Positions 23,475 to 31,111 of a DNA stretch of 64,000 bases are shown piece after piece. The notes below the pieces were generated by a model that searched no databases, was not told the DNA's origin, and worked only from the letters and a program-made list of their open reading frames with translations. This stretch comes from Vibrio pomeroyi. Lineage in GTDB: Bacteria; Pseudomonadota; Gammaproteobacteria; Enterobacterales; Vibrionaceae. The DNA lies in the NCBI RefSeq assembly GCF_024347595.1, contig NZ_AP025506.1:1240001-1304000 (forward strand). The letters are read 5' to 3'. Both the position numbers and the translations under genes were made by a program. The first letter of the stretch is position 1. Each line of letters begins with the position of its first letter.

Positions 23475-24560
23475 ATGAAAACACTTAAAGTGGCCGCAGG
23501 ACTGTCGTGTTTAGCCTTACTGACAGCTTGTGAAGATAAACAAGTGGTAGAAGTGGACAATACACCCTTAGTTAAAGCCGTCGAGATTTCAGTCATTGAT
23601 TTTAGCGACAAGCTCTATTTCCCAGCGGTCGCAAATGCGGCTGAGAAAGCTCACCTTAGTTTCCGAGTGGCGGGGGAAATCTATAAGCTTGATGTTAAAG
23701 AAGGCGAACGTGTTTCTGCTGGTGACATCATTGCAGAGCTTGACCCGACCGATTATCAATTGGATGTGGACAACGCTCAGGCGCGTTACACGGTAATCAA
23801 CAGCCAATACAGACGTTCAAGTCCGTTGGTGAAGAAAGGGCTATTGGCGAAATCGCAGTTCGATGAAATCGCCGCGCAACGTCAGATCGCTTATGCCGAA
23901 TTAGAGCTTGCGAAACTGCGTTTGTCTTTCACTAATCTTCGTGCCCCAGTTGATGGGATTATCTCTCGCGTGAGTGTCGACCAATATGAAAATATTCAGG
24001 TTGGCCAACAGATTGTGAACATTCACAGTGTCGAGGATGTCGAAGTTGTCATTCAGCTCCCTGACCAAATCTATGTGAATCAACCTAATGAGACGCTACT
24101 GTCGAATGTTGAAGCTGTGGTGAGAGTGCCAAGCGGCAATGAATACACAGCAGGTATTAAAGAGTTCACCACTGAGCCGGACCCAAGTACGGGTACCTTC
24201 ACGGTGACACTAGCTTTGCCGATGCCAGAAGACGATTTGATTCTTGATGGTATGGCCGTTGATGTGACCTCAAACGGGCGAGATATCGGTTTGGAGCTAA
24301 AAGCTGGCGTACTTATCCCGATCGAAGCGGTATTCAATGCAGACGGTGATGAACTGGATCGTAAAAACTCTTATGTGTGGGTTCTTAACGATGACAAGAC
24401 AGTCTCGAAACAACAAGTCGTGTTAGGAAAAGCAAACCAGAAAACATTGCAGATAATGAAAGGATTAGAAATGGGGCAGCATGTCGTTGTTGCAGGCGTA
24501 TCGCGATTGCGAGATGGGATGACAGTGGAAGTATTGTCTCAGGAGACGAACAATGAGTGA
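23475..24560 (+). CDS. RND efflux periplasmic adaptor lipoprotein, second of two
   Basis: The second HlyD-type adaptor of the same operon, 361 residues. The lipobox LTAC places the lipidated cysteine at about residue 19. SFRVAGEIYKLDV (about 57-69) and the second lipoyl half TNLRAPVDGIIS (about 152-163) flank a short coiled coil. It is similar in layout but clearly different in sequence from the first adaptor, so the two may form a mixed hexamer. Its last 8 bases overlap the pump gene. By position it corresponds to vexJ. Confidence 0.87.
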   Translation: MKTLKVAAGLSCLALLTACEDKQVVEVDNTPLVKAVEISVIDFSDKLYFPAVANAAEKAHLSFRVAGEIYKLDVKEGERVSAGDIIAELDPTDYQLDVDNAQARYTVINSQYRRSSPLVKKGLLAKSQFDEIAAQRQIAYAELELAKLRLSFTNLRAPVDGIISRVSVDQYENIQVGQQIVNIHSVEDVEVVIQLPDQIYVNQPNETLLSNVEAVVRVPSGNEYTAGIKEFTTEPDPSTGTFTVTLALPMPEDDLILDGMAVDVTSNGRDIGLELKAGVLIPIEAVFNADGDELDRKNSYVWVLNDDKTVSKQQVVLGKANQKTLQIMKGLEMGQHVVVAGVSRLRDGMTVEVLSQETNNE

Positions 24561-27500
24561 AGTGAATAACAAGCCTCAAAATGACGATCAACAGGGTGAT
24601 GATCAGATCACAGGTGTTGCTTCTTACTTTATACGTAACAAAGTCATTAGCTGGATGCTATCTCTGATCTTTCTTATTGGTGGTGTTTCTGCATTCTTTG
24701 GTTTGGGTCGTCTAGAAGATCCTGCCTTCACTATCAAAGATGCAATGGTTGTAACCTCTTACCCTGGGGCGACCCCTCAGCAAGTGGAAGAGGAAGTGAC
24801 CTATCCATTAGAGAAAGCGATTCAACAGCTTACTTATGTAGACGAAGTGAACTCTATCTCAAGCCGTGGCCTGTCGCAGGTAACGGTAACGATGAAGAAT
24901 AACTACGGCCCCGATGATCTTCCGCAAATATGGGATGAACTTCGTCGAAAAGTGAATGATTTGAAGGTCGAATTGCCGCCGGGCGTAAATGACCCTCAAG
25001 TTATTGATGATTTCGGTGACGTTTACGGTATTTTGCTCGCGGTAACGGGCGATGGCTACAGTTACAAAGAGCTGCTGGATTACATCGATTACCTAAGGCG
25101 AGAGCTGGAGTTGGTTGATGGGGTCAGTAAGGTCTCCGTTTCTGGTCAACAACAAGAGCAAGTATTCATTGAGATATCGATGAAGCGGATAAGCTCCTTA
25201 GGTCTGTCTCCAAGCACGGTATTTAATCTTTTATCGACTCAAAACATTGTATCAAGTGCCGGTGCGGTAAGAATTGGCGACGAATACATTCGCATCCATC
25301 CAACGGGTGAGTTTCAGAATGTTGAACAGCTCGGCGATTTGATTCTAACTGAAGGCGGTGCTCAAGGTCTTATCTATTTGAAAGACGTAGCTGACGTTAC
25401 TCGTGGCTACGTTGAAGTACCGAGCAACATCATTGGCTATAACGGTAAACTGGCACTCAACCTTGGTGTCTCTTTTGCTCAAGGTGTAAACGTGGTTGCT
25501 GTCGGTGAAGCCTTTGACCGACGACTTGCTGAGCTTAAGTACCAACAACCTGTCGGCATCGATATATCTGAGGTTTATAACCAACCGAAAGAGGTAGATA
25601 AGTCGGTCAGTGGTTTTGTTGTCAGCCTCGGACAAGCGGTTGCGATCGTAATCGTAGTTCTGCTGTTCTTCATGGGGTTACGTTCCGGTCTGTTGATCGG
25701 TTTGATACTGTTGTTGACCGTTTTCGGTACCTTCATTTTCATGCAGTACTTCAAGATTGATCTCCAACGTATTTCATTAGGCGCATTGGTTATCGCCTTG
25801 GGGATGCTGGTGGATAATGCCATTGTGGTGGTGGAAGGGATATTGATCGGCACGCAGAAGGGGCGAACCCGGATGCAGGCCGCCACCGATATCGTTACCC
25901 AAACTAAATGGCCGCTGTTGGGTGCAACCGTTATTGCGGTGACCGCTTTTGCGCCTATCGGTTTGTCTGAAGACTCAACCGGCGAATACTGTGGCACCTT
26001 GTTTACGGTTCTGCTTATCTCGCTCATGTTGAGTTGGTTTACGGCAATCTCAATTACGCCATTCTTTGCTGATATGTTCTTTAAAGGTCAGAAGGTTGAT
26101 CCTGATAACGAAGGCAAAGACCCATACAACGGGATGGTTTTTGTTATCTATAAAAACTTCCTTGAGTTCTGTATGAAGCGTGCGTGGCTAACCATGTTCG
26201 TTCTGATTATTGGTTTGGGTGCGAGTGTTTACGGTTTTGGTTTTGTAAAACAAGCCTTCTTCCCATCTTCTACTACGCCAATGTTCCAAGTGGATGTTTG
26301 GATGCCGGAAGGGACCGATATTCGTGCGACCAACACCAAGCTTAAAGTGCTTGAAGGTTGGTTAGCAGAGCAGGACGAAGTTGAGCACATCACGACGACA
26401 GCAGGTAAAGGTCTACAACGTTTCATGCTGACTTACTCACCAGAGAAAAGTTATAGCGCATACGGCGAGATAACGGTTCGTGTGAAGAGCTATGAAGTGC
26501 TTGAAGGGCTGATGCTGCGTTTCCGTGAACATGTAAATGGTCAGTTCCCTGAGATCGACTACAAGCTGAAACAAATCGAATTAGGCCCTGGTGGCGGTGC
26601 GAAAATTGAAGCGCGAATTGTAGGCTCTGATCCAACGGTATTACGTTCAATTGCAGCCCAAGTGATGGACATCATGCGTGCTGATGATGGTGCATTTAAC
26701 GTTCGTCACGATTGGCGTGAAAGAACTAAGGTGTTAGAGCCTCAGTTCAACGAAAGCCAAGCTCGTCGTTACGGTATTACTAAGTCTGACGTTGATGATT
26801 TCCTGGCGATGTCTTTCTCGGGTAAATCGATTGGTGTGTATCGTGACGGTACTACGCTGATGCCTATCGTGGCTCGTTTACCTGAAGATGAGCGTGTTGA
26901 TATTCGTAACATCGAAGGCATGAAGATTTGGAGCCCAGCACTAAGTGAGTACATCCCACTGCAACAAGTAACGCTAGGTTACGAACTGGAATGGGAAGAC
27001 CCGCTGATCATCCGTAAAAACCGTAAGCGTATGCTGACGGTAATGGCGGATCCTGATCTATTGGGTGAGGAAACGGCTTCGACTCTACAGAAACGCTTAC
27101 AACCACAAATTGAAGCGATTGAGATGCCACCGGGTTACTCATTGGAGTGGGGTGGTGAATATGAGTCGTCGGCAGATGCACAGGCGTCACTGTTTACAAC
27201 CATGCCTCTGGGTTACTTGTTCATGTTCTTGATCACTGTGTTCTTGTTTAACTCGGTGAAAGAGCCTCTGATTGTTTGGTTAACAGTGCCACTCGCCTTG
27301 ATAGGGGTGACGACAGGCTTGTTAGCCTTGAATACACCATTCGGCTTTATGGCGCTGTTGGGCTTCTTGAGTCTATCAGGGATGCTTCTGAAGAACGGTA
27401 TCGTACTGCTTGATCAAATTGAGATTGAGATGAAGTCAGGTAAAGATCCATATGTAGCGGTTGTTGATGCGGCACTGAGTCGTGTTCGTCCGGTATGTAT

Positions 27501-27663
27501 GGCGGCGATCACTACCATTCTTGGTATGATCCCTCTGCTACCAGATATCTTCTTCAAACCAATGGCGGTAACCATTATGTTTGGTTTGGGCTTTGCGACT
27601 GTACTCACGCTAATCGTAGTACCTGTGCTGTATCGTCTATTCCATAAAATTGAAGTAGCTTAA
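24553..27663 (+). CDS. RND multidrug efflux pump (AcrB-type inner-membrane protein)
   Basis: A 1036-residue proton-driven exporter. The family pattern of twelve helices with two large periplasmic loops is visible. Helix 4 carries ALGMLVDNAIVVVEG (about residues 415-429) with the proton-relay Asp. The C-terminal half has the repeat GFLSLSGMLLKNGIVLLDQIE (about residues 937-957). The N-terminus has about 30 polar residues before the first helix. The best guess is a drug or bile-type exporter (vexK-like) rather than a metal pump. No outer-membrane channel gene is nearby, so it probably uses TolC. A terminator follows at 27681-27710. Confidence 0.9.
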   Translation: MSEVNNKPQNDDQQGDDQITGVASYFIRNKVISWMLSLIFLIGGVSAFFGLGRLEDPAFTIKDAMVVTSYPGATPQQVEEEVTYPLEKAIQQLTYVDEVNSISSRGLSQVTVTMKNNYGPDDLPQIWDELRRKVNDLKVELPPGVNDPQVIDDFGDVYGILLAVTGDGYSYKELLDYIDYLRRELELVDGVSKVSVSGQQQEQVFIEISMKRISSLGLSPSTVFNLLSTQNIVSSAGAVRIGDEYIRIHPTGEFQNVEQLGDLILTEGGAQGLIYLKDVADVTRGYVEVPSNIIGYNGKLALNLGVSFAQGVNVVAVGEAFDRRLAELKYQQPVGIDISEVYNQPKEVDKSVSGFVVSLGQAVAIVIVVLLFFMGLRSGLLIGLILLLTVFGTFIFMQYFKIDLQRISLGALVIALGMLVDNAIVVVEGILIGTQKGRTRMQAATDIVTQTKWPLLGATVIAVTAFAPIGLSEDSTGEYCGTLFTVLLISLMLSWFTAISITPFFADMFFKGQKVDPDNEGKDPYNGMVFVIYKNFLEFCMKRAWLTMFVLIIGLGASVYGFGFVKQAFFPSSTTPMFQVDVWMPEGTDIRATNTKLKVLEGWLAEQDEVEHITTTAGKGLQRFMLTYSPEKSYSAYGEITVRVKSYEVLEGLMLRFREHVNGQFPEIDYKLKQIELGPGGGAKIEARIVGSDPTVLRSIAAQVMDIMRADDGAFNVRHDWRERTKVLEPQFNESQARRYGITKSDVDDFLAMSFSGKSIGVYRDGTTLMPIVARLPEDERVDIRNIEGMKIWSPALSEYIPLQQVTLGYELEWEDPLIIRKNRKRMLTVMADPDLLGEETASTLQKRLQPQIEAIEMPPGYSLEWGGEYESSADAQASLFTTMPLGYLFMFLITVFLFNSVKEPLIVWLTVPLALIGVTTGLLALNTPFGFMALLGFLSLSGMLLKNGIVLLDQIEIEMKSGKDPYVAVVDAALSRVRPVCMAAITTILGMIPLLPDIFFKPMAVTIMFGLGFATVLTLIVVPVLYRLFHKIEVA

Positions 27664-27740: not shown

Positions 27741-28307
27741 ATGGAAGCGAATACAGTGGATAGAACGTGTGCATGGGCACTGAAACATGAACTTGAAAGG
27801 GAATATCACGATGCAGAGTGGGGCGTGCCTGTTTATGATGACCAAGTGCTATTTGAGTTCATTACGCTAGAAGGTGCCCAAGCCGGCCTAAGTTGGATTA
27901 CGATACTTAAAAAACGTGAAGGCTATCGTGCTGCATTTGAAAACTACGACCTCAATAAGCTAGCTGTACTCAATGAAGACAATGTGCCAAATATCATTGA
28001 AAACTTCGATGTGGTTAAACATAAGGGCAAGATTGCCTCGGTTTACAATAATGCGCGTGCAACGCTTGAACTTCAGAAAGAGTTTGGTTCTCTATCGAAT
28101 GCTTTATGGCAGTTTGTTGATAATGAGGTGATCGTCAATCAATGGACAGAGATGTCTCAAGTCCCGGCTTCTACCGAGCAATCCAAAGCGATGAGCAAGT
28201 TTTTGAAGAAAAGAGGATTCAAGTTTGTAGGGGAAACAATCTGTTACGCGTTTATGCAAGCAACAGGTATGGTTAATGACCATCTAGTTGGTTGTCCTTA
28301 CAAATAA
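27741..28307 (+). CDS. tag: DNA-3-methyladenine glycosylase I (Tag)
   Basis: Tag removes 3-methyladenine from alkylated DNA in base-excision repair. The 188-residue length is typical. RTCAWAL near the N-terminus supplies the first zinc-binding cysteine (about residue 10), and the C-terminal pattern NDHLVGC (about residues 179-185) gives the zinc-binding His/Cys pair; YHDAEWGVP (about 22-30) is the family signature. It stands alone between the RND terminator and the ToxR-like pair. Confidence 0.93.
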   Translation: MEANTVDRTCAWALKHELEREYHDAEWGVPVYDDQVLFEFITLEGAQAGLSWITILKKREGYRAAFENYDLNKLAVLNEDNVPNIIENFDVVKHKGKIASVYNNARATLELQKEFGSLSNALWQFVDNEVIVNQWTEMSQVPASTEQSKAMSKFLKKRGFKFVGETICYAFMQATGMVNDHLVGCPYK

Positions 28308-28416
28308 AAATATTATTTATCGTCGCGAAATAATTGCGTGAAAATTGGAAAATTCACTGGTCATTTATAAACTATTCAATATCATATGCGACCGAATTAA
28401 AACCTAGAAGACGATA

Positions 28417-29355
28417 GTGAAACAACAAAGCTACCAAATTTGTGATGCTAGTTATGATCCCTTGCTAAGGCAGTTTGTGCGTGAAGATGGCCACGTAGAA
28501 ACTATCGCGCCGTTAGAAGGTAAGGTGTTCTTGTTCTTGCTAGAGAATGCTGGTGAATGCATTGAACGAGGCCTGATATTTGATAGGTGCTGGGGCAATG
28601 TGATTGTTTCAGAACAAGCTCTCACCAATGTGATCTCCAAGATTCGCAAAACCCTGTCTCGAGTCACGTGTGGTTGTGCGACGATTCGTACCGTGAGTAA
28701 AACGGGCTATTCGCTTGAAATCAATGAGTCGATAAAGCCTAGCAAAGCTGAAGTTGTCCCTTATTCTGTGATTATAGAGGGCGTTGAATCAAACTCTTCG
28801 CCTGTCGCCCAAGAGGTGTTAGCAGCGACTGAAACCTCTGCCGATGCTAACAAGACAACGACATCAGATTCAGAACTCAATATTTCATCGAATCAAGAGC
28901 AGAACTCAGCCGAGCTAGAACCTTTAAATTCGAAAAAAAATACGTACCTCGTCAAAGCCGGTTATCTAATCGCGTTGATCTGCGTAGTCGTAACGGCGTT
29001 CAACCTTTTCCAAACCTATTATGCGCCAATGCCTTATTTTGTTGATAAGACGGAATATAGAGACAGTTACACAGACAATACCAATCAATACTTTTTCCAC
29101 ATTGTTCACGATGAAACCTATTCATTGCCAGCGATTACCCAAAAGCTAACGGATGTATTGCCGAGCCACTGCAACGTTGACGTCTTTGTCCGTATTTATC
29201 CATCTGTTGATCAGCCCGAAAATTATGCTTTGTATATGTTGGTTCAAAGGAAGGATGGCGAGGCCCTCAACTATGGGGCGACAATTTTCAATGTAGAGAC
29301 GTCTTTTGACTCATTTGCAGCTTATATGGAAAAGAGGAGCTACTTTTGCGATTAA
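28417..29355 (+). CDS. ToxR/TcpP-like membrane-bound transcription regulator
   Basis: A one-component regulator with three parts: a cytoplasmic winged-helix domain of the OmpR/ToxR type (about residues 15-108), a Ser/Glu/Asn-rich linker (about 115-172), and one membrane helix (about 178-200) followed by a periplasmic domain of about 110 residues. The periplasmic domain has two cysteines (SHC and the near-terminal YFCD), as in ToxR where they form a disulfide. The start is GTG with an AGAAG site. Its stop overlaps the next gene, encoding a small one-TM protein, giving a ToxR/ToxS or VtrA/VtrC type pair. The periplasmic sequence does not look like canonical ToxR. It could sense bile, pH or another periplasmic signal. 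Confidence 0.8.
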   Translation: MKQQSYQICDASYDPLLRQFVREDGHVETIAPLEGKVFLFLLENAGECIERGLIFDRCWGNVIVSEQALTNVISKIRKTLSRVTCGCATIRTVSKTGYSLEINESIKPSKAEVVPYSVIIEGVESNSSPVAQEVLAATETSADANKTTTSDSELNISSNQEQNSAELEPLNSKKNTYLVKAGYLIALICVVVTAFNLFQTYYAPMPYFVDKTEYRDSYTDNTNQYFFHIVHDETYSLPAITQKLTDVLPSHCNVDVFVRIYPSVDQPENYALYMLVQRKDGEALNYGATIFNVETSFDSFAAYMEKRSYFCD

Positions 29356-29816
29356 TTGGCTTACTTATTCTATTGGCAGTTGCTGCAGCAAGCTTTTTGC
29401 TGGAACAGAACGAATTGGCGGGCACTCGATGGCACTGTAAAACGCTAAAAACGGATTTCTTATCTCAGGCATTCCAACCGTATCAATCGCTTTATGAGCG
29501 AATGAGCATTACTTTTCAGTCTGACCAAACTTTTAGTATGAGAGAGTTTGTGACGATCACTGAGAAAGACGGCAACGAAGGCACAATGGAAAATCTTTAT
29601 TCCGGTTACTACGGTCTTGATGGGAATCATTTGTCGATGAGTATTATTGATGTGAGAACTGCCACTCCGTTTCATGATCCGATCATTAATCAGGAATACA
29701 GTGAGTACAAAGGGGTGACCATTGATTACTCGATCTTGGAGAACGATCAGTCCCTGTATCTGTTTAATGAGCACCGCTCAGAAATCTTCAACTGGACATG
29801 CTTTAAGGTTCAATAA
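29346..29816 (+). CDS. Small one-TM periplasmic partner of the ToxR-like regulator (ToxS/VtrC-like)
   Basis: These 156 residues have an N-terminal membrane helix (about 4-18) and the rest in the periplasm. Translation begins at a TTG inside the last codons of the regulator gene (10-base overlap), so the proteins are made together. The pattern is beta-rich: ELAGTRWHCKTL, a central SITFQSDQTFSMREF, GNHLSMSIIDV, and a closing IFNWTCFKV. The cysteines in WHC and WTC could form a disulfide. This would suit a lipocalin-like barrel, the fold of VtrC, which with VtrA binds bile salts in V. parahaemolyticus. Fold and function are inference. No Pfam-level family is apparent to me. Confidence 0.7.
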   Translation: MRLIGLLILLAVAAASFLLEQNELAGTRWHCKTLKTDFLSQAFQPYQSLYERMSITFQSDQTFSMREFVTITEKDGNEGTMENLYSGYYGLDGNHLSMSIIDVRTATPFHDPIINQEYSEYKGVTIDYSILENDQSLYLFNEHRSEIFNWTCFKVQ

Positions 29817-29926: not shown

Positions 29927-31111
29927 TTAAACCAGAGCGTTGTAACGTTCTAATCCAGCCTCAAGATCTGCAATCAAATCATCGACATCTTCTAAGCCGA
30001 TATGAACACGAATCAAAGTACCTTCGAAGTTTGGATTCGCTACCGTTCTTAGGCTATCAAAGCTGCTTGGTTCATTCGCGAGAATCAAGCTCTCGAAACC
30101 ACCCCATGAGTAACCCATGCTGAAGTGTGTCATGCCATCAAGTAGTGCAGTCGTTGCTTTTGTGTTTGAGTTCTTTAGAACAAACGAGAATAGGCCATTG
30201 CCGCCGGTAAAGTCACGTTTGAAGAATTCATGACCAGGGCAAGACTCAAGAGCAGGGTGACGAACATGATCAACCTCAGGGCGAGTTTCTAGCCACTTAG
30301 CGACTTTCAAGCTGCTCTCTGCGTGTTGGCGCAAACGAACATCAAGAGTACGGATACCACGAAGACCAAGGTAAGCATCATCTGGTGAAACGCATTGTCC
30401 CATCAAGTAGCTCTGCTCTCTCAGTTGATCCCAGCATTTCTCGTTGGCAACCGCAGTGCCCAGCATGACATCTGAGTGACCTACTATGTACTTGGTCGCT
30501 GCTTGAATCGAGATATCGACACCAAAATCAAACGGTGAGAAGTTAACGCCTGCTGCCCAAGTGTTATCTAGCATCACGATGATGTCGTGTTCGTGGGCAA
30601 TACGCGCGAGCGTTGGAATGTCTTGGACTTCCATGGTGACTGAACCCGGAGACTCGGTAAATAGCACCTTGGTGTTTGGCTTGATGAGGTCTTGGATGCC
30701 TTCACCAATCGTTGGTTCGTAGTAAGTTGTCTCTACACCCATCTTTTTCATGATTGTGTCACAAAAATCACGAGTCGGTTCGTAACAGGTGTCGACCATC
30801 AAAATATGGTCGCCCGTTTCTACAAAAGAGAGAATGGCGTTAGAGATAGCTGCTGTACCACAAGGGTAGAGTGCACAGCCTGCGCCGCCTTCCACTTCCA
30901 CCATGGCATCTTGGAAGGCGAAATGAGTGTTGGTTCCACGACGTCCGTAAAAAAGTGTTTTGTTAGCGCGGTTAATTGTAGCTTTACGCTTCTCTTCTAC
31001 TGAGTTGAATACGACAGTTGAAGCGCGCTGTACTGGTGGGTTAACGACACCATTGGTCCACTTCTTATCACGACCTGCAGTGATCAGCTTAGTGGTTTTG
31101 TTCTCGGACAT
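29927..31111 (-). CDS. metC: Cystathionine beta-lyase MetC
   Basis: This PLP enzyme of the Cys/Met metabolism family cleaves cystathionine to homocysteine, pyruvate and ammonia in methionine synthesis. It has 394 residues, the usual length. YGRRGTNT (about residues 55-62) is a substrate/PLP-phosphate loop, and the PLP lysine is in AATKYIVGHSD (about residue 208). LGLRGIRTLDVRL is family-typical. The ribosome site is AAGGA. I did not find recognisable MetJ boxes upstream, so control by methionine is not evident here. Confidence 0.95.
   Translation of the reverse strand: MSENKTTKLITAGRDKKWTNGVVNPPVQRASTVVFNSVEEKRKATINRANKTLFYGRRGTNTHFAFQDAMVEVEGGAGCALYPCGTAAISNAILSFVETGDHILMVDTCYEPTRDFCDTIMKKMGVETTYYEPTIGEGIQDLIKPNTKVLFTESPGSVTMEVQDIPTLARIAHEHDIIVMLDNTWAAGVNFSPFDFGVDISIQAATKYIVGHSDVMLGTAVANEKCWDQLREQSYLMGQCVSPDDAYLGLRGIRTLDVRLRQHAESSLKVAKWLETRPEVDHVRHPALESCPGHEFFKRDFTGGNGLFSFVLKNSNTKATTALLDGMTHFSMGYSWGGFESLILANEPSSFDSLRTVANPNFEGTLIRVHIGLEDVDDLIADLEAGLERYNALV

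Follow-up and report, generated by a model that had tools for sequence, protein, structure and literature searches.

A ToxR-like regulator and its overlapping partner gene in Vibrio pomeroyi: a probable co-component sensor of a distinct branch

Gene organization at the locus

The DNA analysed here, a stretch of 64,000 nucleotides from Vibrio pomeroyi that we call the window (NCBI RefSeq assembly GCF_024347595.1, contig NZ_AP025506.1, positions 1,240,001 to 1,304,000 of the forward strand), carries two overlapping genes, A and B, which encode a ToxR-like transcription factor tethered to the membrane and a small periplasmic partner with one transmembrane helix. A first-pass annotation of the sequence had described the pair as a regulator gene with winged helix-turn-helix, transmembrane and periplasmic parts that overlaps, by 10 bases, a TTG-started gene for a 156-residue protein with one transmembrane helix; coordinates, the PF00486 domain and hydropathy all agree with that description. 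The features of the pair are as follows (window positions; dN/dS is the ratio of nonsynonymous to synonymous substitution rates).

28417..29355, + strand: gene A, membrane-tethered ToxR-like transcription factor, 312 amino acids, GTG start (open reading frame, Pfam, hydropathy)
28504..28716, + strand: winged-helix DNA-binding domain of A (PF00486, residues 30-100, E 3.9e-9)
28945..29001, + strand: single transmembrane helix of A, residues 177-195 (hydropathy)
29017..29352, + strand: periplasmic domain of A, approximately residues 201-312, with C252 and C311 (cysteine alignment)
29333..29339, + strand: AGAGGAG, Shine-Dalgarno-like site for B within the A coding sequence, 6 bases before the TTG
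29346..29355, + strand: A/B overlap of 10 bases, TTGCGATTAA, with the B start, the A Cys311 codon and the A stop (sequence; relatives)
29346..29816, + strand: gene B, periplasmic partner with one transmembrane helix, 156 amino acids, TTG start (dN/dS 0.077)
29346..29402, + strand: N-terminal transmembrane helix of B, residues 1-19 (hydropathy; helix 2-18 in the model)
29427..29807, + strand: predicted 8-stranded lipocalin-like barrel of B, residues 28-154, with a helix (112-119) between strands 5 and 6

The pair is a distinct branch of the co-component superfamily to which ToxR/ToxS and VtrA/VtrC belong. It is new only as a branch, because the co-component concept and the overlapping gene architecture have been published previously (Kinch et al. 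2022, PMC9214523); thus, the first-pass proposal of a new co-component sensor holds as regards a distinct pair, but not as regards a new kind of system. The superfamily features found here are PF00486 in the first gene, one transmembrane segment followed by a C-terminal domain, an overlapping downstream gene for a partner with one transmembrane helix, a predicted barrel in that partner, and a regulator cysteine encoded at the gene overlap. In the Pfam search, PF00486 reaches 36.9 bits in A against a cut-off of 26.2, and the winged-helix profile matches the CadC and ToxR DNA-binding domains; judged by sequence, the DNA-binding domain of A is of the CadC/ToxR type. Only one hydrophobic stretch is seen in A by hydropathy, followed by the C-terminal domain, which points to the membrane topology given above.

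Conservation of both genes and the predicted fold of B

In 26 close loci, the window's own included, B is at least 59% identical and both open reading frames are present. The overlap measures 10 bases in 24 of these loci and 13 in the other 2; the start codon of B is TTG in 23 and ATG in 3; and a GAGG or AAGG core precedes B in 23, the remaining three being the ATG-start loci. Substitution rates were compared for 25 of the 26 loci (L036 was dropped), using pairs with dS > 0.1, i.e., 183 to 250 of 300 pairs depending on the region. Within A, the winged helix has a median dN/dS of 0.049, the cytoplasmic linker 0.549, the membrane segment 0.208 and the periplasmic domain 0.080; for B it is the 0.077 listed above (189 of 300 pairs usable), while the two other same-strand frames of B hold 252 and 394 stops. 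These ratios indicate that both genes are under purifying selection, and the conservation of the small frame that the first-pass annotation had wished to see checked is borne out. The cysteine pairs that it had noticed in both periplasmic parts, C252 and C311 of A and C31 and C152 of B, are kept in all 22 aligned sequences, window included; the C311 codon (29347-29349) sits within the overlap, near the C terminus of A.

No Pfam family matches B above the cut-off (the best were RTC4, E 0.029, and Lipocalin_4, E 0.11; the latter appears below the threshold in 2 of 22 family members, with a best E of 0.019), and no NCBIfam model matches it. The AlphaFold2 model of B is an 8-stranded barrel with a pLDDT (predicted local distance difference test) of 89.8, in which C31 lies in strand 1 (28-35) and C152 in strand 8 (150-154), so placed that a disulfide could join them. 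ToxS and VtrC entries make up its five top structural matches by VIA Z, the best being ToxS 8u2f and 8alo. It is therefore predicted with high confidence that B folds as a lipocalin-like barrel of the ToxS/VtrC type, and this barrel, together with the gene architecture, supports the earlier comparison of the pair's build with that of ToxR/ToxS and VtrA/VtrC.

Distribution and locus types

Searching 196 genomes drawn from the genus, a sample of its species and not a complete set, identified matches to B at 53 places in 38 genomes, with a related A gene at all 53 loci; carriers of the branch include vibrios under the names V. splendidus, V. chagasii and V. crassostreae. These loci fall into three types: T (26 loci, the close relatives described above), in which the pair lies near tag and metC as in the window; O (19 loci); and S (8 loci). 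Trees of A and of B resolve the same three groups, each as a single group, with support values of 100/100 (T), 97/94 (O) and 99/98 (S) for A and 94/87, 100/98 and 100/99, respectively, for B; they comprise 36 rows (9 of the 26 T loci, 19 O and 8 S), among which several O rows are long-branched. The flanks of the window's pair are as follows.

27741..28307, + strand: tag, DNA-3-methyladenine glycosylase (PF03352; Pfam), flank
28308..28416, + strand: tag-A intergenic region, candidate promoter or autoregulatory region (conserved block; no O-type operator match)
29927..31111, - strand: metC-type pyridoxal phosphate (PLP) enzyme (PF01053; Pfam), flank

At T loci, tag is within the stretch in 25 of 26 cases and metC in 24; in L035, transposase-like open reading frames (judged by eye) occupy the expected place of metC, and in L042 metC is absent from the stretch. 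The tag/metC setting, where a search had been suggested earlier, is limited to close relatives, and the other loci are of the O and S types. A separate search for tag in 61 genomes gave a match in 57, and among the 30 tag loci listed (own included) the pair adjoins tag in 5, in 14 the pair is missing and approximately 0.9 kb at most separates tag from metC, and metC is not within the stretch in 11, one of which (G045) has the pair approximately 8 kb from tag. Since tag and metC are neighbours without the pair in those 14 loci, gene order indicates that the pair has been gained or lost at an old tag-metC junction. Further upstream of tag, window positions 23475-27663 hold efflux-type genes, MFP-like and RND-like (named by eye); an RND gene beside tag is also found in tag loci that lack the A/B pair. 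Between tag and A, a block at 28372-28393, CTATTCAATATCATATGCGACC, is largely conserved among close relatives and may serve the pair as a promoter or autoregulatory site; sigma-70-like matches around this intergenic region are at chance level.

At type O loci (L054-L067, L072-L075, L079), the A and B genes overlap by 10-17 bases, and in 19 of 19 cases the divergent neighbour encodes a small outer-membrane barrel of the OMP_b-brl family, as judged by similarity to one such protein; three of the 19 outer-membrane proteins (OMPs) were run against Pfam, and these match PF13505 at 3.4e-19 or better. These loci were retrieved by the search for B, not by one for the OMP, and the OMP neighbour is a feature of the relatives' loci, not of the window locus. 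At type S loci, the counterparts A' and B' are split by the thiol peroxidase gene tpx in 8 of 8 cases, with a PF08534 match in the one tpx product run against Pfam. One S locus lies in the window's own genome (L048 3619-6293, C1:3108118-3110792), with a gap of 590 bases from tpx to A'.

An operator-like repeat beside the OMP gene

The OMP-A intergenic regions of type O have in common a triple A-rich repeat (ACTAAA/CAAAT/CACA) with an 11-bp period (half-sites spaced by about 11 bases), located on the OMP side. It is reminiscent of the ToxR box, given in published work as TNAAA-N5-TNAAA. In a leave-one-group-out test, in which each of 11 groups was in turn excluded from the matrix and a single locus of each was scored, the block ranked first among the sites in all 11 cases, and 10 of the 11 left-out blocks scored above all positions of the 64-kb window on both strands, whereas the exception, group L054, reached only the 1.3e-4 level. 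The test is not fully independent, because the block had been picked by eye beforehand from an alignment of all 19 O loci; support for the candidate operator is thus strong but not independent. Upstream of the S gene A', no such operator was found (best score 3.7).

A further occurrence was identified on the second contig of the window's genome (L076 5119-6471), where an OMP homologue has an operator-like site scoring 16.3 (the window maximum is 11.6). This OMP gene is divergent from a 104-residue winged-helix-only gene, with the site between them, and the best matches of the latter in the local sequence set are O-type regulators (E 4.3e-24). Among the 61 genomes searched, 6 carry this gene (own included), and an OMP gene is divergent from it in 5; at L076, a search for remnants of membrane or partner parts turned up nothing convincing. 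Taken from gene order and the repeat, O-type pairs may control the neighbouring OMP_b-brl gene.

Three things go beyond the open-access literature searched: the existence of this branch, its association with an OMP gene and a candidate operator, and the split arrangement around tpx. Each O locus holds the regulator pair and one divergent OMP gene, together with the common repeat, so a small reporter assay could cover the sensor, the regulator, its DNA site and the target at once. The S branch, with its split genes, is a natural test of whether the pair can work without the overlap.

Other ToxR-like genes of the same genome

The canonical htpG-toxR-toxS locus lies elsewhere in the window's genome (L143), where a ToxR of 303 amino acids has the HSP90 gene htpG as its neighbour and ToxS matches PF17323 at E 1e-59. 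The genome holds further ToxR-like genes besides these pairs. Two more ToxR-like genes overlap small-protein genes (L006 1396-2719, 298 and 145 amino acids; L007 1492-2756, 268 and 153 amino acids); these small partners have no Pfam family, and both pairs are candidate co-component systems. In addition, a ToxR-like gene of 298 amino acids is directly upstream of a redoxin-family gene (PF08534) with a signal-peptide-like start (L146 4701-6395), which makes a second ToxR-like/peroxiredoxin neighbourhood in this genome.

Proposed mechanism and alternative explanations

We consider it likely that the A/B pair is a co-component signalling system that works as follows. Translational coupling would lead to A and B being produced in step, and, by analogy with ToxR/ToxS and VtrA/VtrC, the two would pair in the periplasm as a heterodimer, with B completing or stabilising the domain of A. 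A hydrophobic molecule derived from the envelope or the host might then occupy the B barrel and alter the stability or pairing of A; loss of B, loss of the disulfides, or envelope stress could act as alternative triggers. From the membrane, the winged helix of A would regulate promoters through A-rich direct repeats. The most likely target in the O branch would be the divergent OMP_b-brl gene, and the window's T pair probably also serves an envelope function. Architecture and selection are direct observations in this scheme and the B fold is a confident prediction, whereas pairing, ligand and targets are carried over from ToxR/ToxS and VtrA/VtrC.

Several results weigh against this explanation. 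Profile comparison finds no relation between B and ToxS (hhalign probability 0.4%) or between the periplasmic domain of A and ToxR (4%). The full-length AlphaFold2 model of A has a pLDDT of 40, low even over the winged helix, probably because the alignment is of low diversity, and it has no Foldseek match at E <= 0.001; as this model failed, a VtrA/ToxR-like periplasmic fold of A can only be presumed. With the B model, Foldseek ranks a retinol-binding protein (1rlb_E, TM-score 0.39) equal to VtrC in E-value (2.1e-3). As regards DNA targets, there is no O-type operator before the window's T pair (best position weight matrix score -1.6), and a genome-wide scan with the consensus pattern is at chance (97 matches vs. 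87 in the control).

Two alternatives concern what the pair senses. B might serve A solely as a chaperone or as a shield against proteases, the role proposed for TcpH and ToxS; the barrel would then be ligand-free and the pair would read envelope protein stress or proteolysis. This seems rather unlikely given that the closest folds, ToxS and VtrC, are both reported to bind bile salts, although chaperone and ligand-sensing roles are not mutually exclusive. It appears improbable that the pair is mainly a redox sensor, in which C252/C311 of A and C31/C152 of B, reduced or oxidised, switch A on or off. The invariance of both cysteine pairs fits such a sensor, as do the paralogous S pair flanking tpx in all 8 loci, the redoxin gene adjoining the ToxR-like gene of L146, and the published statement that ToxR requires oxidised disulfides (PMC9214523). 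However, structural disulfides would be equally invariant, and a search of the 19 O stretches (4.3-9 kb) and of 9 T stretches (12.9 kb each) gave no homologue of tpx or of a redoxin.

The remaining alternatives deny that A and B form a system of their own. That they are simply a relocated orthologue of toxRS (or vtrAC) is very improbable: the architecture is the same, but canonical toxRS is present beside htpG in the same genome, so A/B is not toxRS, as the first-pass annotation had held, and the B sequence matches neither PF17323 (up to E 1) nor any VtrC chain of the PDB (up to E 10). It is hardly conceivable that A is a one-component regulator and B an open frame that overlaps it by chance, as the TTG start of B and its lack of a Pfam family above the cut-off might suggest; the 53 loci with related genes, the low dN/dS and the confident barrel model refute this.

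The co-component explanation could be extended to a single family of envelope sensors, a scenario that we regard as doubtful. Here, the O type would be ancestral, with a disulfide-closed barrel that senses the state of the envelope and controls the divergent OMP through the 11-bp triple repeat. The T copy would have moved between tag and metC and gained other targets, while the S pair would have been broken up, its genes losing the overlap and flanking the tpx that they control. In part of the clade that carries T, the OMP locus would now be occupied by the soluble winged-helix-only relative.

Comparison with known systems

Co-component sensors are known mostly from enteric pathogens, and the ligand of many of them is reported as not known (PMC9214523). 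According to the same source, the C-terminal cysteine of the superfamily regulators is encoded at the gene overlap, except in VtrA. ToxS and VtrC bind bile salts (PMC9214523 and the ToxR/ToxS literature), and further facts for comparing ToxR, ToxS and VtrA are found in PMC10269533, PMC13042144 (a preprint), PMC10624426 and PMC8517210.

Whereas VtrA of V. parahaemolyticus is described as having no ToxR-type cysteines, those of A form an invariant pair, and a search of PDB sequences with B or its profile gave no VtrC chain up to E 10. The partners of the FidL/YqeJ/BprQ type (GrvA/FidL, YqeI/YqeJ, MarT/FidL and BprP/BprQ) have as their hallmark a disulfide joining the N- and C-terminal strands of the barrel (PMC9214523), and B, with its cysteines in strands 1 and 8, where a disulfide could form, resembles them in this respect. 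It differs from FidL/YqeJ in that FidL_like is absent from the 9 Pfam families matched by the 22 members (E <= 0.1). PF15941 was above the cut-off in none of 21 relatives and none of 14 controls, and one weak match below the cut-off (E 8.9e-4) belongs to another family of the order, so B and these partners may still be distant kin.

In contrast to ToxR/ToxS, the pair does not adjoin htpG, the cysteines of B are in the first and last strands, and neither periplasmic domain is similar at the profile level; PF17323, the ToxS family, is not listed for B up to E 1. Nonetheless, as in ToxR/ToxS of V. cholerae and V. parahaemolyticus, a regulator with winged-helix, transmembrane and periplasmic parts is followed by the gene of a partner with one transmembrane helix, the closest structures of B are those of ToxS, and A has a periplasmic cysteine pair, as is reported for ToxR. 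ToxR is also reported to act on outer-membrane porin genes, the same class of target that is proposed here for the O branch.
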